DNA of 64,000 nucleotides, taken from assembly GCA_019186945.1 (NCBI GenBank), contig JABAQJ010000006.1, positions 1 through 64,000 on the forward strand, written 5' to 3'. Origin of the DNA: Gemmatimonadaceae bacterium (GTDB lineage: Bacteria; Gemmatimonadota; Gemmatimonadetes; Gemmatimonadales; Gemmatimonadaceae). Position 1 is the first letter of the stretch. Every line of letters starts with the position of its first letter. The position numbers and the translations under genes are program-made. The notes under the pieces are model-generated. The model made no database searches. It was given only the letters and a program-made list of their open reading frames with translations, and had not been told where the DNA came from. Below are positions 3,612 to 59,206 of the stretch, one piece after another.

Positions 3612-4625
3612 ATGTCGCACTCCGCACCCTCTTTCAGACACCGGGCGATCATCGCCCGCCGTCGCATCCGCGAGCTCGCCATGATCGGGCGGGCGTTGCT
3701 TTCCACGTCGCACCCGGTCCTGGCGCACGTGGTCGCGACGCGTCGTTGCAACCTTGCCTGTGCCTACTGCAGCGAGTTCGACGGCACATCGCGTCCGGTC
3801 CCTCTCGATGCGATGTTCGAACGGATCGATCGATTGGGCGACCTGGGCACGGCGGTCATCACGATCAGCGGTGGCGAGCCGCTGTTGCATCCGGATCTGG
3901 ACGACATCATTCGGCGCGTCGCGGCGACAGGTGCGATTTCCGGCGTGATAACGAACGGGTATCTGCTTGGCGAGGAGCGGATCAGGCGGTTGAACGGCGC
4001 CGGCCTCGATCACCTGCAGATCTCGATCGACAACGTGTCGCCCGACGACGTCTCGAAGAAGAGTCTGAAGGTGCTCGACCGGAAGTTGCAACTGCTGGCG
4101 GACCACGCCGAGTTTCATGTCAACATCAATTCCGTCGTCGGAGGAGGCGTGCGCCACCCCGAGGACGCGCTGACGATTGGTCGCCGCGCGATCGCGCTCG
4201 GTTTCACATCGACCGTTGGCATCGTCCACGATCGGCGTGGCCAGCTCAGGCCTCTGACCGAGGAGGAGGTATCCGTCTTCGAAGCGCTCATGCGATTCGA
4301 CAAGCGGAACTATTCGCGGTTCAACCAGTTCCAGCGTAACATCGCGAGCGGACGGCCCAATGACTGGCGTTGTCGGGCGGGCGCGCGTTACCTGTACGTC
4401 TGCGAAGATGGCCTGGTGCACTATTGCTCGCAGCAACGTGGCGCCCCCGCGATTCCCTTGGCAGAGTACACACGCGCGGATCTGCGCCGTGAGTTCCTGT
4501 CGGAGAAGGCGTGCGCGCCCAACTGTACGGTGAGCTGTGTGCACCAGATCTCGTTCATAGATCATTGGCGGGCCCCGCAGCGAAAGAGCGCGCTGCGGTT
4601 GCCCGTGCTGGAGCCCGAGGTGTAG
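3612..4625 (+). CDS. Radical SAM protein with SPASM-like C-terminal cysteines
   Basis: A radical S-adenosylmethionine enzyme of about 337 residues. The 4Fe-4S motif is RRCNLACAYC (cysteines 46, 50, 53), followed by ISGGEPLLHP at about 86-95 for SAM binding and a barrel with QISIDN. The C-terminal part has further cysteines (WRC, YVCEDG, HYCS, then CAPNCTVSC) that look like a SPASM or twitch auxiliary cluster. The substrate is unknown; no peptide precursor lies next to it. The start is uncertain: GTG at 3603, ATG at 3612 and ATG at 3681 are all possible and none has a strong ribosome site. It converges on the DUF2891 gene. Confidence 0.85.
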   Translation: MSHSAPSFRHRAIIARRRIRELAMIGRALLSTSHPVLAHVVATRRCNLACAYCSEFDGTSRPVPLDAMFERIDRLGDLGTAVITISGGEPLLHPDLDDIIRRVAATGAISGVITNGYLLGEERIRRLNGAGLDHLQISIDNVSPDDVSKKSLKVLDRKLQLLADHAEFHVNINSVVGGGVRHPEDALTIGRRAIALGFTSTVGIVHDRRGQLRPLTEEEVSVFEALMRFDKRNYSRFNQFQRNIASGRPNDWRCRAGARYLYVCEDGLVHYCSQQRGAPAIPLAEYTRADLRREFLSEKACAPNCTVSCVHQISFIDHWRAPQRKSALRLPVLEPEV

Positions 4626-4643
4626 CCGCTTCGAGGTGTGGCG

Positions 4644-5834
4644 TCAGGGCGATCGCGATCCGGACTGCGTGTGGGCTGCGCTCACCATGTAGTCGACGAG
4701 ATACGTGCCGATCCAGTGTGTGCCGACGTAGTCGGCCTCGTACATGGCGGCCAAACCGCCTCGCGCCTGCAGGTTGGCGATCCGCCGATACTCGGGGATG
4801 CGTGAGTCTCCCGAGGGAAGGGCGGCGGCGATGTCCTCCAGCGACTTGGCGCGGCTGACGGCCAGACCGATCAGATGTGACTTGGCACCCAGCATGTTCG
4901 ACTTCTCGAGTTCCGCATTCAGGCCGGACATCTGCACCACTTGGGTGAGCGCTTTGAACCCGTCGCTGCGCGGCGCCGGAAGGAACGCCGTCAGCCACGT
5001 TCCAAACTCGCCATGCGGAAGCACTTGCCCCATCAGCGCCGCCTCCAGGAGGCAGGGCGAGAAGAAGTCGGATCCGGAGACCTCCACGTTCGGCGCGCAC
5101 CCGACGTCGGCGAGGAAGAACCGGCGTGCGCGCTCCACGACGGTCGCCTCGAGCGCCTTGTCGCCGGTCAGGCGCGTGTACTCGAGCAGCAGATGCAACG
5201 CAAAGGCCGTGTTGGCGTGCGTCCCGACGCGCATCGGTTCGGCGAGAGTCTGCAGATACGGGATCGTTCGCTCCAGCAGCAGCCTTGCGAGGGGCTCGAT
5301 GTTGGCGGCCCACTTCGTGGCATCGGGGTCGTCCCACGACTTCAGCTCCCCGTACAGCCGCAACAGCCAGGCGTATCCGTAGGGACGTTCGAAACTCCGG
5401 TCGCCGTCTTCGGTGAAGAACGTCAGTTCGCCCTTGAGCGACCCGGCCGAAAGGTGCTCGTTCAGCTTCTCGCGGATGAGACGTGCGACGGGAATGGTCG
5501 GATGAAGGCGGAGGATCTTCACCATTGTCCAGGTGGAGTTCACGGCCGAATGCCAATCGGAACAGCCGTAGAAGGCGCGGGCCTTGGCGAAGTCGGGTCT
5601 GATTATCGCCGTCGTTTCGTACAGGTAGCCGCGCCCTTTCGGCGGATCGTGCGGTTTGTCGATGCACGCGAGGGGCAGCGCCACCAGCCACATGGCTGTC
5701 TCACGGTCCAGCCTGAGCGGGCTGGTAGCCGTGTCGGCTGACGCGGAGGCTGCGGAAATCGGTGCCACCAGCAACCAGGCGCTTGCGACGAACCAGCGGT
5801 GCGCTCGGGCGTTTCGATGCAGAGGCTTGGGCAT
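4644..5834 (-). CDS. Secreted DUF2891 family protein
   Basis: A 396-residue protein with an N-terminal signal peptide (WFVASAWLLVAPISAASASA). The rest is rich in alpha helices with motifs of the DUF2891 family: FYGCSDWHSAVNSTWTM near the N-terminus, RPYGYAWLLRLYGEL in the middle and THWIGTYLVDYM at the end, consistent with an alpha/alpha toroid. No reaction is established for the family as far as I know. The frame is open far upstream (to 6440), but only the ATG at 5834 places the signal peptide at the N-terminus. Confidence 0.8.
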   Translation of the reverse strand: MPKPLHRNARAHRWFVASAWLLVAPISAASASADTATSPLRLDRETAMWLVALPLACIDKPHDPPKGRGYLYETTAIIRPDFAKARAFYGCSDWHSAVNSTWTMVKILRLHPTIPVARLIREKLNEHLSAGSLKGELTFFTEDGDRSFERPYGYAWLLRLYGELKSWDDPDATKWAANIEPLARLLLERTIPYLQTLAEPMRVGTHANTAFALHLLLEYTRLTGDKALEATVVERARRFFLADVGCAPNVEVSGSDFFSPCLLEAALMGQVLPHGEFGTWLTAFLPAPRSDGFKALTQVVQMSGLNAELEKSNMLGAKSHLIGLAVSRAKSLEDIAAALPSGDSRIPEYRRIANLQARGGLAAMYEADYVGTHWIGTYLVDYMVSAAHTQSGSRSP

Positions 5835-7977: not shown

Positions 7978-9248
7978 GCCTGGCCGCCCGAGTCTTCATC
8001 GCCCTCGTCCTCGGCCTCCTCGCCGGGATGCTGGTCGCTGCCTTCCCCGTTCCTGCGCTCACGCGTACGGTCGCGGTGCTCGATCCCGTCGGTACGCTGT
8101 GGGTCAATGCCATCCGCATGACTGTCGTCCCCCTGGTGGTCTCGCTCCTGATCACCGGAGTGGCGTCGTCAGCGGATGCACGAGTCGTGCGCGATGTGGG
8201 AATTCGCGCGTTCGCCGCGTTTGTCGGCTTGTTGCTGCTGGCGGCTGTCGTCGGTCTGACTCTCGTTCCGCTGCTGTTCAAATGGCTGCACGTGGACCCG
8301 GCAACCGCCGCGGCCCTTCGATCGGGAACGGTCAGTGCCGCGGACGCGGCGGCACGCGTTCAAGGATTCAGGGAATGGCTCGTCGGGATTGTCCCCGCCA
8401 ATCCCGTCAGGGCGGCCGCCGACGGAGCGATGCTCCCGCTGGTGGTCTTCGCGCTGGCGTTCGGGCTTGCCCTCATCCGGATCGCCAACGATCGGCGCGA
8501 GGTCGTGCTCTCGTTCTTCGCCGGAGTCGCGAGCGCGATGCTGGTCATCGTGCGCGCGATCATCGCACTCGCGCCGGTCGGCGTTTTCGCCCTCATGCTG
8601 CCGGTTGCCAGCCGCACCGGTACCGCGGCAGCCAGCGCCCTGGGCTACTACCTCGCGGCGATGGTCACTGCCTGCCTGAGCCTGATCGCGATACTCTACG
8701 TGATGGCACGAGCGATCGCTCGCGTGCCTGTCGCCCGTTTCGCTCGAGGAGTGTTCCCGGCGCAGGCAGTCGCGGTCAGCACGCGCTCCTCGCTTGCCTC
8801 CTTGCCGGCACTGATCGAAGGAGCCGATCAGCGGCTTGGCCTGCCGGTAGCAACAACGAGCGTCGTTCTTCCCCTGGCCGTCTCCACGTTCAAGATCGGC
8901 TCGCCGGTGGTGTGGATGGTGGCGGTTGTCTTCCTTGCCAGGTTCTACGGCGTGACGCTCGCCCCAATCGACTATCTAATGGTTTCCGCCACGGCGCTCC
9001 TCACCAGCTTCTCGGTGCCCGGCGTACCCCATGGGTGGCTGCTCGTGATCTCACCCCTGCTCGTGACGATGAACATCCCGGCCGAAGGGATCGGATTGCT
9101 GATCGCGGTCGACGCGATTCCCGACATCGTCGCCACCACACTCAACGTCACCGCCGACATGGTTGCGGTCGCGATCGTGGCCCGGACGACGACGCCGGTC
9201 GCATCGTCGCGGACTACGGGACGACCAGCGGCATTGCCCACTCCATGA
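7974..9248 (+). CDS. Dicarboxylate/amino acid:cation symporter (DAACS family)
   Basis: An inner-membrane secondary transporter of 424 residues related to GltP/DctA, which take up glutamate, aspartate or C4-dicarboxylates with protons or sodium. It has about eight hydrophobic segments and a re-entrant region with STRSSLASLPALIEGADQRL, the serine-rich loop of this family, followed by PLAVSTFKIGSPVVWM and DAIPDIVATTLNVTADMVA near the C-terminus. The GTG start at 7974 overlaps the previous stop. The 3' end overlaps the end of the convergent hydrolase gene by 35 bases. Confidence 0.9.
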   Translation: MSLAARVFIALVLGLLAGMLVAAFPVPALTRTVAVLDPVGTLWVNAIRMTVVPLVVSLLITGVASSADARVVRDVGIRAFAAFVGLLLLAAVVGLTLVPLLFKWLHVDPATAAALRSGTVSAADAAARVQGFREWLVGIVPANPVRAAADGAMLPLVVFALAFGLALIRIANDRREVVLSFFAGVASAMLVIVRAIIALAPVGVFALMLPVASRTGTAAASALGYYLAAMVTACLSLIAILYVMARAIARVPVARFARGVFPAQAVAVSTRSSLASLPALIEGADQRLGLPVATTSVVLPLAVSTFKIGSPVVWMVAVVFLARFYGVTLAPIDYLMVSATALLTSFSVPGVPHGWLLVISPLLVTMNIPAEGIGLLIAVDAIPDIVATTLNVTADMVAVAIVARTTTPVASSRTTGRPAALPTP

Positions 9249-50345: not shown

Positions 50346-50349
50346 GTGA
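50116..50349 (+). CDS. Possible small protein preceding the cyclase gene
   Basis: A 77-residue frame, basic at the N-terminus and with a C-terminal helix (LVVRALAILDDEIASWCERR). Its TGA overlaps the likely GTG start of the cyclase gene (GTGA at 50346-50349), the layout of coupled genes. Against it: no ribosome site, an ATG inside a palindrome and no recognisable family. It may be a leader peptide or chance. Confidence 0.3.
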   Translation: MSSRAAAKNTPISRPLPKLVPRGTTRSRDVLLSHTGRGSEEAAEADPAQLVVRALAILDDEIASWCERREIAARTSP

Positions 50350-53300
50350 TCTGCGTTGCCTGCGGGTTCTCGAACGGTCCCACGGCTCGCTTCTGTTCCG
50401 GCTGCGGACGACCGATCGAAGTGGCGATTTCGGCGACCCCGACCGGCGAGCGGCGGCAGTTGACGGTGCTCATGTGCGACGTCGTCGGGTCTACCGCGCT
50501 GTCCCAGTCGCTCGATCCGGAAGATCTGCGCGATCTTCTCGAAGACTACCAGCGGGTCTGCGCGGAGGCGGTCAGGCGGCACGACGGGCACATTGCGCAG
50601 TACCTGGGCGATGGAGTCCTCATCTACTTCGGCTATCCCCTGGCGCATGAGGACGACGCGCGCCGCGCGGTCCGCTGCGGGTTGGACATCCTGGGTGCGA
50701 TGGCCGGGCTGACCAGCGCTGCGGTCAAGCGAACGGGGGCGAAGCTGGCGATCAGGACCGGGATCCATACCGGCCGTGTCGTCGTGGGTGCGGTAGGGAC
50801 GGGTGCGCGCATGCAAAGTCTTGCACAGGGAGAAACGCCGAACATCGCGGCGCGCGTCCAGGCCTCGGCGGATCCCGGAACGCTCGTGGTGAGCGATGCG
50901 ACCTGGCGAATCGTCAAGGGGTACTTTCGCGGCGAGCCACACGACGGGCGCGAGCTGAAAGGCGTCGCCCGGCCGACGAGGCTGTGGCGCGTGATCGGAA
51001 CGACGGGCGCCGAGTCACGTCTGGAGAGTGCGATCGAGCTGACGGGATATGTCGGACGCGATCTGGAGCGTCGTGCACTCGGCGAGGCGTGGAATGCAGT
51101 GAAATCGGGATCGTCGCGCTTCGTGACCTTGCGCGGTGAAGCCGGTATCGGCAAGTCGCGACTGGTGCAGGAGTTCACGCGGGGAATTGCGAGCGCGGAC
51201 GTGGATATCCTGACGATGCGCTGCACGCCGTACTCGCAGAACAGCGCCTTCCTGCCGATCACCGAACTGATCGAGCGAAGACTGAGGCTGGATCGCTCGC
51301 TGGACGTCCAGGAGCGGCTCGAACGGCTCGACGCTCGCCTCGTCGAGCTGGGGATAACCGCACCGGATGCGGCGCCACTGCTGGCGGCGCTGCTGTCCCT
51401 GCCGGCGGACGAGCGTTACCCGCCCTTCGTGATCTCGCCGATCCGTCGTCGCTCTCGCACGCTCGACGTTCTCGTCGCGGCACTGCAGGCGCTGGCGTCG
51501 AGCCGGCCGACGATTCTCGTGGCCGAGGATCTGCACTGGTCGGACCCGTCGACGCTGGAATTGTTGCAGCTGATGGTGAACTCGGCGCCGACCTTGCCGC
51601 TCCTCGGGTTGTTTACCGGGCGTCCCGAGTTCCAGCCGTCATGGAGTGCTGCCACTGCCGCGGTGTCGATCGATCTGTCGCGCCTCGACGACTCGGAGGT
51701 GGAGGCGGTGGTGCGAGGCGTCGCGCACGGGAAACCGCTCCCCGGTGAGGTCATGCGGGAGATTGCGCTGCGGTGCGACGGCGTGCCGCTTTTCGCGGAA
51801 GAGGTCGCACACGCGGTGCTCGAAAGCGGCGTCCTCGAGGAGCGCGACGATGCCTGGGAACTGACAGGCCCGCTCCCAACCGGTCTGGTCCCCGCCAGCG
51901 TCGATGCCTCGCTGATGGCGCGCATCGACAGACTCGGGGACGCGCGCGCCACCGCGCAGCTCGCGGCGACCATCGGTCGCGAATTCTCCTACGCGTTGCT
52001 CCGCGCAGTCAGCGACCGCGACGAAGTCGCGCTGGGCGACGACCTGCAACGGATCGTGGGCGCCGGGCTCGCCTGGCAGACGTCGACGGGGGATGACGAG
52101 ACGTTCGTCTTTAAGCATGTGCTCGTGCAGGTAGCGGCATACGAATCGCTTCTGCGTTCGAAGCGTCAGCGCTACCACGACCGAATCGCGCGCGTCCTTC
52201 AGGAGCAGTTTCCGCAGCTCGCAACGGAGCAACCGGAACTGATCGCACAGCACCTGACTGGCGCCGGCCAGTTCGAGCAGGCTATCGGTTTCTGGGAAGC
52301 CGCGGGCCATCGCGCCATCGCGCGGACGGCGATGCACGAAGCGGCGGCGCATCTGCGCCACGCCATCGACGCTGTCGCCAGACTCCCGGAAGATCCGCGA
52401 TGGCTCGAACGGGAGCTGGATCTGCAGAACGATATCGCGCCGGTCCTGATGACCGTGCATGGATGGGGAGCGACTCACGTCCGCCAGGCCTGCGAACGGG
52501 CCCGCGACCTCGCCATCAGGCTCGGACGCTACGACAAGATCTATCCCGCCGCATGGGGGCTGTGGACCTACTACTTCCTTCGCGGCGAAATGGCGGAAGC
52601 CGCCGTGACGGCGAGATCGGCGCACGAAATGGCGGAAGCCTCCGGCATCCCGATGATCCAGGTGACGGGACGGCATGCCACGGCCTACACGCATCTCTAT
52701 CGTGGCGAATTCGAGGAGGCGCTACGCGAGGCGGACGCCGGCCTTGCGCTGTTCGATCTGGAGCAGGAGCGGACGCTGGCTGCAACATTCCAGCTCTCCT
52801 CGTCGGTTGCGCTGCGTACGGCGCGCGCGACAGCGCTCTGGATGCTTGGACGACTGGATGAAGCCGGACGCGAGCGCCAACGCATGGTGAGGCTTGCCCG
52901 CGAGCTGGATCACGTTCCCAGTCTCGCTGCCGGGCTCGCATTCCAGTTGCACTGTACTCTATGCGCCGGGTGGCACGAACGCGACGTCGACGAACTCATC
53001 GCCGTCGCCGACGAGTTGCGCACGTTATGCAGGGACGAAGGTTTCTTCCTCTGGTACGCGGTCGCTGTCACGTACAGAGGCGCCGCAGCAGCGATCACGG
53101 GCGACACCGCCTTGGCCTGTACGCTGATGCGCGACGGTCTCGCCGAGTTCGTCCAGACAGGCGCACGCCTGACGCTGGTGCCGATGAACATGATGTGCGC
53201 GGAAGCGCGCATGCTGCTCGGCGAGGACGTGGAGCCGTCGCGGCTGCTCGACGATGCCCAAGCCGAGGCGGACGCACGGGACGAGCGGATGTGGGAGCCG

Positions 53301-53567
53301 GAAATCGATCGCGTGCGCGGCGCCTTGCTGCTTAAACGCGGCGACCGTGTCGCTGCCGAGTACTCCGTCCGGCAAGCGCTCGCCAAGGCCAGGGGGCAGA
53401 ATGCGGCATCGTTGGAGCTGCGCGCCGCTCTCGACCTGCATGCCTTGCTGGATGGTACCGGCCGCGTGGCCGAGGCCCAGGCTGCCGTGGCCGCCGCGGT
53501 CCATCGATTCGAGCCCGACACGCATCACCCAGAGGTCGCGCGGGCGCGCGCCCTCGTCTCGGCATAG
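50346..53567 (+). CDS. Zinc-ribbon, class III nucleotide cyclase, AAA ATPase and TPR regulator
   Basis: A multidomain signalling protein of 1073 residues. Order: zinc ribbon (CVACGFSNGPTARFCSGCG), class III adenylate/guanylate cyclase domain at about 38-205 (metal aspartates in LTVLMCDVVGST and YLGDGVLIYFGYP; GETPNIAARVQ near its end), a P-loop ATPase (RGEAGIGKSRLVQEF; Walker B TILVAEDLHWSD) and about 400 C-terminal residues of TPR-like helices. Such proteins couple cyclic-nucleotide synthesis to ATPase and protein binding. The GTG at 50346 is preferred (AGGA upstream); a TTG at 50307 is possible. The encapsulin-like gene starts 33 bases after its stop. Confidence 0.88.
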   Translation: MICVACGFSNGPTARFCSGCGRPIEVAISATPTGERRQLTVLMCDVVGSTALSQSLDPEDLRDLLEDYQRVCAEAVRRHDGHIAQYLGDGVLIYFGYPLAHEDDARRAVRCGLDILGAMAGLTSAAVKRTGAKLAIRTGIHTGRVVVGAVGTGARMQSLAQGETPNIAARVQASADPGTLVVSDATWRIVKGYFRGEPHDGRELKGVARPTRLWRVIGTTGAESRLESAIELTGYVGRDLERRALGEAWNAVKSGSSRFVTLRGEAGIGKSRLVQEFTRGIASADVDILTMRCTPYSQNSAFLPITELIERRLRLDRSLDVQERLERLDARLVELGITAPDAAPLLAALLSLPADERYPPFVISPIRRRSRTLDVLVAALQALASSRPTILVAEDLHWSDPSTLELLQLMVNSAPTLPLLGLFTGRPEFQPSWSAATAAVSIDLSRLDDSEVEAVVRGVAHGKPLPGEVMREIALRCDGVPLFAEEVAHAVLESGVLEERDDAWELTGPLPTGLVPASVDASLMARIDRLGDARATAQLAATIGREFSYALLRAVSDRDEVALGDDLQRIVGAGLAWQTSTGDDETFVFKHVLVQVAAYESLLRSKRQRYHDRIARVLQEQFPQLATEQPELIAQHLTGAGQFEQAIGFWEAAGHRAIARTAMHEAAAHLRHAIDAVARLPEDPRWLERELDLQNDIAPVLMTVHGWGATHVRQACERARDLAIRLGRYDKIYPAAWGLWTYYFLRGEMAEAAVTARSAHEMAEASGIPMIQVTGRHATAYTHLYRGEFEEALREADAGLALFDLEQERTLAATFQLSSSVALRTARATALWMLGRLDEAGRERQRMVRLARELDHVPSLAAGLAFQLHCTLCAGWHERDVDELIAVADELRTLCRDEGFFLWYAVAVTYRGAAAAITGDTALACTLMRDGLAEFVQTGARLTLVPMNMMCAEARMLLGEDVEPSRLLDDAQAEADARDERMWEPEIDRVRGALLLKRGDRVAAEYSVRQALAKARGQNAASLELRAALDLHALLDGTGRVAEAQAAVAAAVHRFEPDTHHPEVARARALVSA

Positions 53568-53600
53568 CAGTTGGAAGGCACCTTCACCCAGGAGATCGAG

Positions 53601-54524
53601 ATGTCCGGCAACGACGCACAGGTCCCGTGGACCGACGATCAATGGAATACCGTCAATCGGGCGGTGCAGGACACGGCTCGCAAAGCGCGTGTGGCCAGCT
53701 CGTTCCTGCCACTGGTGGGACCGCTGCCATCCTCGGTCACGACCGTGCCTGCGCAGCGCATGTCGAACGCCGATCTCGGCGACGCACAGCGTGGTGAAGC
53801 GCGTGCCCGGCTGGTCATCGAGGAGGCGGACGTGCTCGGGCTGACGACGATCAGCTCGGAAGTGTACCTGAAGAACTCCGAGGCCACGGATCCCGACCTT
53901 TCGTCGGCGATTGCCATGCTGTGTCGAGCCGCCGACGTCATCGCGCGGGTGGAAGACGCCGTCGTCTTCAACGGTCTGCCGAGCGCCGATTCCGATAGCT
54001 ATCCCGGTGCGGGTCGGGTGCCGGCGCATAACGGGACGCCGATCGTCACCCCAATGATCTATCGGGTCAAGGGTGGTACGCCGAACGGTGGGCTCCTCGA
54101 TGCGGAGCTCAAGGCCACGGTGCCCAAGGAAGGAGAACCTGGAGACGGCATCGTGCGTGCCGTCGTCGACGCCATACAGCAACTGGAAGGGCAGGGGCAT
54201 TACGGACCATTCGCCTGTGTGCTCGGGAACGCGCTCTTCCTCGATGCCAACACGCCGAGTCGTGGTTCGTTGGTGCTGCCGAGCGACCGGATCACGCCAT
54301 TTCTTAACGGACCTCTCCTGAGATCGAGCACCGTTCCGGCAAGTGCGGGAGTGGTCGTGGCGTTGGCTGGCGATCCGATCGATCTGGTCGTGGCAACGGA
54401 CATCACCGCGAAGTTCCTGCAGTTGAGCGTGGAGCCCAGATACGTGTTCCGCGTCTACGAGCGAATCGCGCTCAGGATCAAGCAGCCAGCGGCCGCGTGC
54501 CGGCTGACGTCTGCCCGGAAGTAG
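53601..54524 (+). CDS. Encapsulin-like nanocompartment shell protein (HK97 fold, family 1-like)
   Basis: A 307-residue protein that I align by eye with classical encapsulins such as that of Thermotoga maritima: PWTDDQWNTVNRAV matches the N-terminal PLTEKQW helix; LSSAIAMLCRAADVIARVED with VVFNG matches the backbone helix ending in EDEVIFRG; HYGPFACVLGNALF matches the GPYTLVIN strand; and DLVVATDITAKFLQL then YVFRVYERIALRIKQPAA match GQDLSIGY and the F/TFQVVNPEA end. Encapsulins self-assemble into icosahedral protein shells around cargo enzymes. A longer segment at about 125-160 (GAGRVPAHNGTPI) is an insertion relative to T. maritima. ATG at 53601 follows AGGAG. A phage-type coat protein is unlikely because no phage gene is near. 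Confidence 0.75.
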   Translation: MSGNDAQVPWTDDQWNTVNRAVQDTARKARVASSFLPLVGPLPSSVTTVPAQRMSNADLGDAQRGEARARLVIEEADVLGLTTISSEVYLKNSEATDPDLSSAIAMLCRAADVIARVEDAVVFNGLPSADSDSYPGAGRVPAHNGTPIVTPMIYRVKGGTPNGGLLDAELKATVPKEGEPGDGIVRAVVDAIQQLEGQGHYGPFACVLGNALFLDANTPSRGSLVLPSDRITPFLNGPLLRSSTVPASAGVVVALAGDPIDLVVATDITAKFLQLSVEPRYVFRVYERIALRIKQPAAACRLTSARK

Positions 54525-54528
54525 CGCG

Positions 54529-55422
54529 GTGTCGTTGTCGCCGCCATCGCTGGCCATCGGCCAGCCGTCGCCGTCGCCGCGGCCCGGTGCCGTAGCTGCC
54601 GGTCAGCCGGCGACGATCGGCGTGACCGTCGTTCCCGGTCACCCGAGCAACGTCGTAGATCTCTCGTATCGCGTCGATGGCGGTCCGGTGCGAGTTGCCC
54701 ATGCGCGTCCCGCGGGCATCGTGTCGTTGCTGGAGACCCAGTCGTTCGTGGCGCAGCTGCCGGCGCTCGCGGACGGCCAGCGTCTCGATTTTCGGGCAGA
54801 GCTTCGCCGAGCGGGACGACTGGCTGCATCGGCGCCAGCGGACGGTTCGTGGCAAACGGTCACAGCGGCACCGGAGCAGGTCGTTCGGTCCGGACCGCTA
54901 TCGTCGGCCCGGTTTCCTGCGTGGGACCTGTCGGGGGTGCCGCGCTTCGGGTACGGCCTCGAGTTCCTCGGTGCGCTGACGGTGCAGCTGCGCGCGGAAG
55001 TGATGGGGCACACACCGCAGGGCTATCGCATAAACTTCTTCGTGGTGCATGGAGAAGCGCACGGGCCCCGACTCCACGGGAAAGTCCGTCCGGAAGGCGG
55101 CGACTGGATGAACATCCGGGAGGACGGCGTCGGCGAGGTCGACATCAAGATTACCTACGAGACGCCGGATGGTGCGCTCATCCTCGAGCAGTCGGGCGGC
55201 GTTTTCGACATCGGCCCGGACGGGTACCGGAACGTCATCCGCGGGATCTACCGAGGTGCGCCACCGTTCTTCGCTACGCCTACCTACATCACCGCCGATT
55301 CGCGCTGGAAGTGGATCAACTCGCTCCAGTGTTTCGGATTCGGCCGTGTGGTGATGCCGCATCTGCGCGTGGAGTGCGACATCTACGCGCCCCACCTCCA
55401 GACTGAGCCGCACATTGCCTAG
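54529..55422 (+). CDS. DUF3237 domain protein with extra N-terminal beta domain
   Basis: A 297-residue protein. Residues about 1-20 are low-complexity (SLSPPSLAIGQPSPSPRPG). Residues about 25-115 form an immunoglobulin- or CBM-like beta domain (TIGVTVVPGHPSNVVDLSYR). Residues about 135-292 are a DUF3237 barrel: YGLEFLGALTVQL, GEAHGPRLHGKVRPEGGDWM, REDGVGEVDIKITYETPDG and KWINSLQCFGFGRV. DUF3237 has no settled reaction; the fold is a lipocalin-like barrel that could hold a hydrophobic ligand. GTG at 54529 is four bases after the encapsulin stop and the 3' end overlaps the next gene by eight bases. Confidence 0.75.
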   Translation: MSLSPPSLAIGQPSPSPRPGAVAAGQPATIGVTVVPGHPSNVVDLSYRVDGGPVRVAHARPAGIVSLLETQSFVAQLPALADGQRLDFRAELRRAGRLAASAPADGSWQTVTAAPEQVVRSGPLSSARFPAWDLSGVPRFGYGLEFLGALTVQLRAEVMGHTPQGYRINFFVVHGEAHGPRLHGKVRPEGGDWMNIREDGVGEVDIKITYETPDGALILEQSGGVFDIGPDGYRNVIRGIYRGAPPFFATPTYITADSRWKWINSLQCFGFGRVVMPHLRVECDIYAPHLQTEPHIA

Positions 55423-58372
55423 GGTCATCGTGTTAGGCGGCGGCGTCGCAGGCATGAGCGCCGCTCAGGAACTGATCGAGCGTGGGTTCGAGGTCGTGGT
55501 TCTCGAACGACGTGACATCGCCGGCGGCAAGGCGCGCAGCGTTCCCGTCGTGGATGACGGCCGGGGAACGAGCGGGCACCAGGTCGTGGACACCGGCATC
55601 GATTCGATCGCCCACCATCTCCCTGGAGAGCACGGTTTCCGCTTCTTCCCCGGCTTCTATAAGCATGTCATCGACACGATGCGCCGTATCCCGTCGTTCG
55701 ATGGCCGAAAGGTCGCCGACCATCTCGTGCCGACGACGCGCGTAGGCATCACGCAGTACGGCAAGCCCACGTTTCTCATCCCGGCGACGTTCCCGGTAAC
55801 ACCGGGGGATGCCGGCACGGTGCTCCGCGATATCCTGCTGGCGTTCGGCCCCGTGACGGACCTTACTCCGGACGATCTCGCCTTCTTCGGCGCGCGTGTG
55901 TGGCAGATCATGACGTCGTGTGCGGAGCGACGGTTGGCCGAGTACGAGAAGGTCAACTGGTGGGAGTTCGTTGGCGCCGAACAGCGGTCGGTGTCGTATC
56001 AGAAGTTCCTGGCAGCCGGCATCACGCGTTCGCTCGTCGCCGCGAAAGCGCACAAGGCCAGCACGCGCACGATTGGCGACGTCTTCGTCCAGTTGATGCT
56101 GACGATCGTCAATCCCACGGCTGGGTCGACTGACCGCGTGTTCGACGGGCCCACGAACCTCGTCTGGATCGACCCGTGGCTCTCGTGGCTCGAATCGTGT
56201 GGCGTCGTCTACCGGCGTAACGCGGAGGTGGAAGAGATCCTCTGCGATGGCTTGCGGGTCACCGGTGTTGCCGTGCGGGAGAACGGCGTACGATCGATCG
56301 TGGAGGGCGATCACTACGTTGCCGCGATGCCGCTCGAGCGCATCGCCCCGCTCGTGAACGACGGCCTGCTCAGGGCAGATCCGAAGCTCGCCAACCTGAA
56401 GGCGCTGGCGCCGAACGTAGAATGGATGAACGGCGTGCAATACTACCTCAGGCGCGACGTCCCGACGGCGCATGGGCACGTCATCCACATCGACAGCGAG
56501 TGGGCGCTGACCAGCGTTTCGCAGCTGCAGTTCTGGCGCAGCATAGCGCCCGAGCAGTTTGGCGCGAGCGGCGTGCGCGGCGTGCTCTCGGTGGACGTCT
56601 CGGACTGGACATTTCCCGGAGCCAACGGTCGGCCCGCGATGGCCTGCTCTCGCGATGAGGCGGTACGGGAAGTCTGGCGTCAGCTCAAACGATCGATCAA
56701 CGTCGACGGGGAGCTCCTGTGCGACGACGATCTGCATTCGTGGTTTCTCGATCCGGACATCGCCGACGACCCGCTCCGCCGAGGCTACCTCCGTAACTCG
56801 GAACCGCTGCTGGTGAACCTGATCGGCACCTGGTCGCTGCGTCCCGACGCGGTTACGGCCGTCCCGAACCTGTTCCTCGCATCGGATTACGTACGCACGT
56901 GCACGGACCTCGCCACGATGGAGGGAGCGAACGAGGCGGCACGCCGCGCCGTCAACGGTCTGCTCGATGCCGCCGGCTACAACGGATCCCGCTGCGACGT
57001 GTGGCCCCTTCACGAATTCGAGGTGCTGGCGCCGTGGCGAGCCTACGACGCACAGCGCTTCAAGGCGGGACTTCCGTGGGACGGGACGCTGACCGCCATT
57101 GCCGCCCACGCCGTGCGTGGCGCGTCCCCACTGCTGGACGAAGTACGTCCGCTGCTCGAGGCGGTCTCCCCATTCGTGTCGCCGATTGCCGATGCGCTAG
57201 ACCTGTCGGATGGCATCGCCGAGGATGCGGCTGAGGTTCGGAGCATCGATCCCACAGTGAAAATCGGCTCGGCGTACGTGGCGACGCCGCAGTACCCGCT
57301 GTTCGATCTCGCCAACCAGGTTCCCGGGTCCGGTGACCTGGTCGGCCCAGCGGGCTTCATCGAACGACTGGGATGGTATCGCGACCAGCTTGCGGACACG
57401 CTCGCGTCAGGCATCCCCACGGGGGAGCCACAGAAGCACCTCTACGGACTCGTGAAGGACTTCGTCGGTCGGTCGGGAAAGGGACTCCGCCCCGCATTCT
57501 GCCTCGCCACGGCTCGTGCCTTGGGTGGAAATGCCGAGGACGCGTACCCGGCCGCAGCAGGTATCGAAATGCTCCACAACGCATTTCTGGTGCACGACGA
57601 CATCGAGGATGGCAGCGATTCGCGCCGCGGTGTCGCAACGCTCCATCGCCGCGCGGGCGTCCCGATCGCCGTGAACACCGGAGATGCAATGAACGCCCTG
57701 GCCATGCGGCTCTTCCGCCGGAGCGGAGAGCGGCTGGGACCGGACGTGGCGCTCCGCATACTGGATGAAGTCGATCACATGCTCGTCGAGAGCCTCGAAG
57801 GGCAGGCCACCGAGCTGGGATGGGTGCGCGACAACGACCTCGATGTCGGGGCTGACGACTACCTGCGAATGGTGCTGAAGAAGACGGCGTGGTACAGCTT
57901 CATCCATCCCCTGAGGATCGGGGCGCTGGTGGCGAACGGCAGGGATACGAACCTCGATCGCTTCAACCGCTTCGGCTACCTGCTCGGCCTGGCATTCCAG
58001 GTGACCGACGATGTGTTGAACTTGACGGGGAGCCACGAACGGTACGGCAAGGAGATTGACGGCGACCTGTGGGAGGGAAAGCGGACGCTGGTGCTGTCCC
58101 ATGCTCTCCGTCACGCTAATGGCGCTGATCGCCACTGGATCGGGAATTTCCTGTCACGATCGCGCGAGCGTCGGCTGCCGAGAGAGGTGTTGCGGCTGCA
58201 CGATATCCTGGACGCTGGCGGCAGCATCGCCTGGGCGCGAGACGCGGCCACCGCGTTCGCGGCCGCCGCGGTCAGCGAGTTCGAGTTGTCGGCATTCGCC
58301 GGCGCGCCGGCAAGCGCTGACCTTGACTGGCTCCGCTCCTGCGTGGACTACCTGGTGCGGCGCGAGACGTGA
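55415..58372 (+). CDS. FAD-dependent desaturase/amine-oxidase-type enzyme fused to polyprenyl diphosphate synthase
   Basis: A 985-residue fusion. Residues about 1-540 are a flavoprotein: FAD site VIVLGGGVAGMSAAQEL at 4-20, ERRDIAGGKARS and C-terminal NLFLASDYVRTCTDLATMEGA, as in phytoene desaturase and hydroxysqualene dehydroxylase relatives. A linker of about 100 residues follows, with TVKIGSAYV at 614-622. Residues about 660-985 are a trans-isoprenyl diphosphate synthase: GKGLRPAF, the first aspartate-rich motif LVHDDIEDGSDSRRG and the second FQVTDDVLNL, both intact. It may make a prenyl diphosphate and oxidise a prenyl product. The TTG at 55415 is needed to include the whole FAD motif. It ends the encapsulin operon. 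Confidence 0.85.
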   Translation: MPRVIVLGGGVAGMSAAQELIERGFEVVVLERRDIAGGKARSVPVVDDGRGTSGHQVVDTGIDSIAHHLPGEHGFRFFPGFYKHVIDTMRRIPSFDGRKVADHLVPTTRVGITQYGKPTFLIPATFPVTPGDAGTVLRDILLAFGPVTDLTPDDLAFFGARVWQIMTSCAERRLAEYEKVNWWEFVGAEQRSVSYQKFLAAGITRSLVAAKAHKASTRTIGDVFVQLMLTIVNPTAGSTDRVFDGPTNLVWIDPWLSWLESCGVVYRRNAEVEEILCDGLRVTGVAVRENGVRSIVEGDHYVAAMPLERIAPLVNDGLLRADPKLANLKALAPNVEWMNGVQYYLRRDVPTAHGHVIHIDSEWALTSVSQLQFWRSIAPEQFGASGVRGVLSVDVSDWTFPGANGRPAMACSRDEAVREVWRQLKRSINVDGELLCDDDLHSWFLDPDIADDPLRRGYLRNSEPLLVNLIGTWSLRPDAVTAVPNLFLASDYVRTCTDLATMEGANEAARRAVNGLLDAAGYNGSRCDVWPLHEFEVLAPWRAYDAQRFKAGLPWDGTLTAIAAHAVRGASPLLDEVRPLLEAVSPFVSPIADALDLSDGIAEDAAEVRSIDPTVKIGSAYVATPQYPLFDLANQVPGSGDLVGPAGFIERLGWYRDQLADTLASGIPTGEPQKHLYGLVKDFVGRSGKGLRPAFCLATARALGGNAEDAYPAAAGIEMLHNAFLVHDDIEDGSDSRRGVATLHRRAGVPIAVNTGDAMNALAMRLFRRSGERLGPDVALRILDEVDHMLVESLEGQATELGWVRDNDLDVGADDYLRMVLKKTAWYSFIHPLRIGALVANGRDTNLDRFNRFGYLLGLAFQVTDDVLNLTGSHERYGKEIDGDLWEGKRTLVLSHALRHANGADRHWIGNFLSRSRERRLPREVLRLHDILDAGGSIAWARDAATAFAAAAVSEFELSAFAGAPASADLDWLRSCVDYLVRRET

Positions 58373-58511: not shown

Positions 58512-59027
58512 CTACCGTACCGCTTCCCTTCGCATCGGCTGAACTTCGAACGGTTCTGTCGGCTGCACCTTGAACCGGTCGCCAGCAGAGTGAAAGTGCA
58601 AACGCACGCCATCGCGCAGCTGGTCGAGCGCTGACCCGGCCGCCGACGCATCGCCCGAACGAATCGCCTGCACCAGCGTGAGGAAGTCCTTCCCGGCCTG
58701 GCGCACCACGCCTGGCACCTGTCCCGGTGCATACCCAATGCCCTCGCGCTCGGCGTCCAGCGACTCGAGCGCTTTCTGAGCATCGGTCACATTGCCTGCG
58801 TCGACCGCGATCACCAGGCGCTTGAGGTTGGCGGCGACCCCATCGTGAACGGCAGCGGTCGGCGCCTTCTTCACGTTCCTGTAAACTTTCGCGAACGCCT
58901 CCTTGGCTGCGTCCACGTCCCCGGCCTGCAACGCCGCTCTCAGAGCCTTCACGTTCGGACGACGCGGTCCCTGTCCCGAGGCCGGTTCAGTCAGCTTGTT
59001 GGCACCATTCACTCCGGATACGCTCAT
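58512..59027 (-). CDS. Small cytoplasmic helical-repeat protein, unknown
   Basis: A 171-residue protein without signal peptide. Three helical repeats share a pattern of hydrophobic helix, GD or GN turn and alanine-rich helix: LRAALQAGDVDAAKEAFAKV, VIAVDAGNVTDAQKALESL and VQAIRSGDASAAGSALDQL. I do not recognise the family. The ATG at 59027 has a near-perfect AAGGAGGT ribosome site, so it may be well expressed; an in-frame ATG at 59042 lies before that site and is less likely. It converges on the encapsulin operon and lies 179 bases after tolC. Confidence 0.7.
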   Translation of the reverse strand: MSVSGVNGANKLTEPASGQGPRRPNVKALRAALQAGDVDAAKEAFAKVYRNVKKAPTAAVHDGVAANLKRLVIAVDAGNVTDAQKALESLDAEREGIGYAPGQVPGVVRQAGKDFLTLVQAIRSGDASAAGSALDQLRDGVRLHFHSAGDRFKVQPTEPFEVQPMRREAVR

Positions 59028-59206
59028 CGAGACCTCCTTCATCGGTCAACCTCTGCGCTCGGCTATTCCACCGGCGACACACGATACCTGTAGTGTCGGC
59101 AGGCGGTTGTCCGGCTGAAGGGGGATGTGGGCAGGAATCGGCGCTTGGCTATCCAGCTCGTCCGGCGCGTGTCCTGGGTCACCGGCTCTGGGCGTCTGGC
59201 GCGACG

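Follow-up and report, generated by a model that had tools for sequence, protein, structure and literature searches.

A gene cluster found in distantly related bacteria pairs a family 1-type encapsulin shell protein, of the virus-derived HK97 lineage, with enzymes that appear to build and oxidise isoprenoids, which suggests an undescribed type of bacterial nanocompartment, although packaging of the enzymes has not been shown. The cluster was examined in the window, a 64,000-nucleotide stretch of a Gemmatimonadaceae bacterium (contig JABAQJ010000006.1, positions 1 to 64,000). A first-pass annotation of this DNA had described four head-to-tail plus-strand genes and proposed that a family 1-like shell may package a prenyl synthase/oxidase pair, a combination not known to it as described. 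In this paper we confirm that the four genes are present and arranged as that annotation reported. Its interpretation is supported in part, since the sequence homologies and the conservation of the operon bear it out but neither assembly of the shell nor enclosure of the enzymes was shown.

Gene content and distribution of the operon

The four genes lie on the plus strand, with gaps of 33 and 4 bases and then an 8-base overlap, and the features are as follows.

50346-53567, plus strand (GTG start, 1073 aa): zinc-ribbon / class III nucleotide cyclase / AAA ATPase / TPR-like regulatory protein
53601-54524, plus strand (ATG start, 307 aa): family 1-type encapsulin shell protein (Linocin_M18, HK97 lineage)
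54529-55422, plus strand (GTG start, 297 aa): protein with a C-terminal DUF3237 domain and an unassigned N-terminal part, function unknown
55415-58372, plus strand (TTG start, 985 aa): FAD enzyme-prenyl synthase fusion, made up of the next three features
55415-57094, plus strand: N-terminal half of the fusion, an FAD enzyme of the amine oxidase / phytoene desaturase / HpnE superfamily
57095-57328, plus strand: linker between the FAD and prenyl synthase parts, with no targeting peptide recognised
57329-58369, plus strand: C-terminal half of the fusion, a trans-polyprenyl diphosphate synthase domain, GGPP-synthase-like

Pfam searches assigned Guanylate_cyc (3e-18) and AAA_16 (6e-22) to the first protein, Linocin_M18 (3.9e-25) to the second, DUF3237 (2e-20, residues 144-286) to the third, and Amino_oxidase (8e-20) and polyprenyl_synt (6e-61) to the fourth. 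The GTG start at 50346 agrees with the starts of the two Pseudonocardiaceae homologues. Just downstream of the operon, on the minus strand (58512-59042), lies a 176-aa gene without a family above cut-off, which was not seen in the other loci of the operon.

Conservation of the neighbours in related genomes had been named in advance as a condition that the proposal must satisfy. Within the phylum it could not be applied, because among 395 sampled genomes only the window's own has this shell, but the neighbours are conserved in every distant genome found to have it. These comprise nine further loci: two Ruegeria plasmids, four further Ruegeria, a Rhodobacteraceae MAG, a Pseudonocardiaceae MAG and a second genome of the Pseudonocardiaceae family. 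In all ten loci the order is cyclase, shell, DUF3237, FAD enzyme, prenyl synthase, on the same strand, and this recurrence is more than chance. Shell identity to the window is 59% in Pseudonocardiaceae and 43-47% in Rhodobacterales. The cyclase-ATPase is 51-52% identical in Pseudonocardiaceae and 32-34% in Rhodobacterales, and the FAD enzyme 64% and 52-53%, respectively. The overlap of the DUF3237 and FAD genes is 8 bases in nine loci and 4 in the tenth. The FAD enzyme and prenyl synthase form one protein in the window and in Pseudonocardiaceae but are separate genes in Rhodobacterales. Neither the conservation of the set across distant groups nor this split had been seen in the first-pass annotation.

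Sampling of the families of a Ruegeria and a Pseudonocardiaceae member gave full-length matches in 2 of 346 and 2 of 249 genomes, and sampling of the phylum of the latter gave 1 of 351, itself one of those already known. A set that is rare and scattered yet constant in content is best explained, by inference, by horizontal movement of a functional unit. The G+C of the operon (0.65-0.67) does not differ from its surroundings, so the transfer, if any, is not recent by that measure. Single-sequence scans of the genome contig and viral contig collections and an alignment scan of the viral contigs found no relative, and phage records gave no match. A weak family hit in one sampled genome is, by its neighbours, a prophage-like capsid gene.

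The shell protein

The absence of any HK97-type hit for the 53601 gene, which had been specified beforehand as grounds for rejecting the proposal, was not what we observed. The protein passes the Linocin_M18 cut-off (89 against 24 bits) and matches EncA of Myxococcus best among solved family 1 shells (1.3e-21). It scores 99.7 bits against NF041155, NCBI's family 1 shell model, and so misses the cut-off of 100 by 0.3 bit, but all ten members of the clade match this model at E 0.001 or better, and NCBI already names the two Ruegeria plasmid members as family 1 shells. As a profile of ten relatives it matches twenty-one PDB sequences, nearly all named as encapsulin shells or by their synonyms, and in hhalign it aligns with a profile of ordinary shells over 249 columns (97.4%, E 1.4e-11). 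The PHROG library gave only a negligible match to a phage head protein (E 0.21). The protein has no cNMP insertion domain and has a short N-terminal segment in place of a long N-arm: there is no cNMP_binding hit, and residues 6-125 align with EncA 8-132. An AlphaFold2 model of the shell from a shallow alignment of seven sequences reached a pLDDT of only 35, and that of the fusion protein, also from seven sequences, 42; neither is usable and no fold search was run, so that the prediction leaves the HK97 fold undecided and the fold rests on sequence homology, which implies it. By sequence, then, the protein belongs to the Linocin_M18 / family 1 family.

In a tree the ten new shells fall on one side of a branch with support 88/94, apart from eight shells with DyP or ferritin-like partners and from a long-branched Nitrosospira shell. 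On a plasmid of Nitrosospira sp. NRS527 a divergent encapsulin-like gene (7995-8918, 27% identical to the window shell) lies between genes annotated as SpvB/TcaC-domain and neuraminidase-like proteins, that is, in a Tc-like locus, which is odd for an encapsulin. Four EncA-like shells from Actinomycetota, the phylum of the Pseudonocardiaceae MAG, score only 54-61 bits; the three whose shell gene was called are 26% identical to the window's and have a short gene (123-157 aa, ferritin-like by eye, not tested) immediately upstream, and the fourth has that gene too. So the relatives appear to keep the iron-type partner, and the new clade does not.

It is possible that the HK97-type protein no longer forms a cargo-loaded compartment and acts instead as a scaffold, a lattice or an empty shell, in an isoprenoid pathway with a co-opted capsid protein. 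The divergence of the clade from ordinary shells, with an insertion near residues 126-163, the absence of a canonical targeting peptide and the unexplained loading of the fused enzyme are in favour of this reading. We consider it unlikely, because the alignment to ordinary shells runs over nearly the whole length, including the N-terminal segment, and the clade is conserved as an intact gene in ten loci.

Cargo signals and enzymes

All eight control operons carry the canonical targeting peptide (GSLxIGSLK type) at the end of the cargo gene, whereas none of the proteins of the ten new operons does, and no DyP, ferritin-like, hemerythrin or other listed cargo is present in the ten operons. A DNA pattern for the peptide, which finds seven of the eight controls, has a single match in the window's genome, inside a restriction-modification gene and not at a C-terminus, so packaging would need another signal. 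Cargo can be encoded outside the operon, as proposed for BfrB of M. tuberculosis (PMC8346489), but that the shell encloses an unlinked ferritin-like protein or peroxidase, with the isoprenoid genes as neighbours for another reason, appears very improbable given this result and the presence of the isoprenoid genes beside the shell in all ten loci.

The Rhodobacterales FAD enzymes have about 150 residues beyond the FAD domain (707-718 aa in total) that are lacking in the five homologues read from outside shell operons, in haloarchaea and Streptomyces (548-565 aa). After a fast-changing linker they end in RVIITQKG (RLRVTQIG in the Rhodobacteraceae MAG), a candidate new targeting peptide. Among six Ruegeria the last eight codons show 29 synonymous and no amino-acid-changing pair differences, against 44 and 171 in the preceding 18 codons, which is the build of a targeting peptide behind a flexible linker. 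The last three residues are encoded by CAGAAGGG, which can also serve as the ribosome-binding site of the prenyl synthase gene that follows, but RVIIT alone still shows 18 synonymous and no changing differences. A tail conserved within one genus is not proof of targeting, and in the three fused proteins, whose linkers are poorly conserved, no such peptide was found. GPAGF/GPTGF in the linker of two of the fused proteins recalls the family 2 terpene cyclase motif GPTGLGT, but the third has GPMGF and the stretch aligns with the ordinary N-terminus of the separate prenyl synthases, so this similarity was dismissed.

The prenyl synthase domain is full length and keeps both aspartate-rich motifs (DDIED and DDVLN in the window, the aspartates invariant across the alignment), and its profile matches GGPP synthases best (1wmw 4e-75, 1wy0 1e-60), although chain length is not settled. 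For the FAD enzyme, HpnE (hydroxysqualene dehydroxylase) is the best NCBIfam model and is matched by all ten members, but the scores fall far below the curated cut-offs (76 bits against 283 for HpnE, 45 against 622 for zeta-carotene desaturase), so that it is placed in the superfamily only and its reaction is not assigned. On two Streptomyces plasmids without a shell, a 43% identical FAD enzyme also lies next to a prenyl synthase, which ties it to prenyl metabolism. The DUF3237 protein is conserved in all ten loci, and the solved relatives of its domain (4pux, 3c5o, 3g7g) are annotated only as uncharacterised or UPF0311 proteins. The cyclase keeps the metal aspartates and the N-x3-R motif, but the usual base-specifying lysine is replaced by glutamine in the window, so its product is uncertain. 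In the Pseudonocardiaceae MAG a Crp-type regulator with a cNMP-binding domain (4e-27; 4560-5258 of that locus, minus strand) lies about 1.4 kb upstream of the cyclase gene and is a possible reader of the cyclase's product; it was not noticed in the other loci.

We propose, with a probability of roughly 0.6, that the operon encodes a family 1-type encapsulin nanocompartment devoted to isoprenoid chemistry. In this view the prenyl synthase would make a linear prenyl diphosphate (C20 or longer) and the FAD enzyme would oxidise or desaturate it or a product derived from it, the two being kept together by fusion in the window and in Pseudonocardiaceae and probably by packaging of separate proteins in Ruegeria and its kin, where the FAD enzyme would be loaded by RVIITQKG. 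The DUF3237 protein may act on, or bind, the product, and the cyclase-ATPase upstream probably regulates the operon or the pathway. The sequences themselves demonstrate the homologies, the gene order, the conservation across distant groups, the absence of the canonical targeting peptide and purifying selection on the new C-terminal peptide, whereas packaging, substrate, product, the roles of the DUF3237 protein and the cyclase, and assembly into icosahedral shells with cargo inside, which was not examined here, are our inferences and no experiment bears on them. Related prenyl synthases also occur in clusters without a shell, so the chemistry does not need one.

An alternative, which we regard as less likely, is that the shell packages only one component, for example the FAD enzyme, while the prenyl synthase, DUF3237 protein and cyclase work outside; the compartment would then contain a redox enzyme, as in peroxidase encapsulins, and isoprenoid synthesis itself would not be compartmentalised. 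Only the FAD enzyme of Rhodobacterales has a targeting-like tail and the separate prenyl synthase there has none, but in the window and in the two Pseudonocardiaceae genomes the two enzymes are one polypeptide, so that packaging one packages the other there. A bolder reading, held only tentatively, is that of a previously undescribed class of nanocompartment in which a family 1-type shell took on isoprenoid chemistry independently of family 2B, with a new targeting peptide or loading through a fused enzyme, possibly under control of the co-encoded nucleotide cyclase, and which moves as a unit between distantly related bacteria.

Comparison with known systems

Family 1 encapsulins are known for iron storage and peroxidase cargo, and isoprenoid cargo for family 2B. 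A 2021 survey lists DyP, ferritin-like, hemerythrin, bacterioferritin and cytochrome-fusion family 1 systems (PMC8346489), and its main text contains no combination like the present one. Literature searches for encapsulins with DUF3237, adenylate cyclase, Ruegeria, prenyltransferase or isoprenoids found no description, so that the operon type, which is well supported as a new one with a family 1-type shell, appears to be undescribed, with the reservation that searchable papers only were covered and that the survey's 90 unassigned family 1 systems, shown only in supplementary Fig. S1, were not examined. The shell is not unknown, since NCBI labels the Ruegeria members as family 1. A family 1-type shell with isoprenoid enzymes would mean that prenyl chemistry was enclosed in capsid-derived shells at least twice, which bears on the open question of why cells enclose it. 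The culturable Ruegeria strains make this directly testable, the split and fused versions give a natural comparison of how the enzymes are loaded, and a targeting peptide unlike the known ones would also be useful for engineering.

The cyclase-AAA-TPR part of the first protein aligns with TOMM kinase/cyclase fusion proteins (TIGR03903) over profile positions 281-1266, but the kinase part is missing, the score of 571 bits is below the cut-off of 706, and there are no TOMM genes among the operon genes.

The closest relatives of the prenyl synthase domain (44-50% identical) are found in clusters that have neither a shell nor DUF3237, and whose FAD enzymes are of other families. One, on contig 10 of the window's own genome (locus L030), has a prenyl synthase (8114-9199) 49% identical to the window's domain, a geranylgeranyl-reductase-like FAD enzyme and a protein of about 1200 aa with PKD domains, and recurs in other genomes of the family (loci L031 and L032; the domains were tested in L031). 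Three others (L033, L034 and L036), isoprenoid-like clusters, combine an amine-oxidase-like FAD protein, a prenyl synthase and a protein of about 1150 aa with a weak acetoacetate decarboxylase hit (tested in L036), and in L034 and L036 a cyclase-ATPase 41% identical to the window's lies beside them.

In EncA-type family 1 encapsulins (Myxococcus xanthus EncA, with ferritin-like or DyP peroxidase cargo) the shell protein is homologous over nearly its whole length, likewise lacks a cNMP insertion domain and is encoded by a single gene next to putative cargo genes. The present operon differs in its separate shell clade, in having no DyP, ferritin-like or hemerythrin gene and no canonical targeting peptide, and in carrying the cyclase, DUF3237, FAD enzyme and prenyl synthase instead.

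Family 2B encapsulins with polyprenyl transferase (PT) or terpene cyclase cargo share with it an encapsulin operon with a trans-prenyl diphosphate synthase, and NF041169 is the best curated model for this domain, though far below its cut-off (196 against 450 bits). The kinship with family 2 cargo PTs that this match suggested was rejected by a tree in which the domain groups with relatives from shell-less clusters of the window's family, a group split 100/100 from the family 2 cargo PTs, a point that the first-pass annotation had not seen. The shell is family 1-type without a cNMP domain, the separate prenyl synthases have no long disordered N-terminus, and no family 2B shell was found in the window's genome. 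In family 2B shells the cNMP-like domain does not bind cyclic nucleotides (PMC12407261), so the presence of a cyclase here should not be read as a link between the two families. This is not a family 2 cargo that changed shells, and the association of an encapsulin with isoprenoid enzymes in this operon looks independent of that in family 2B.
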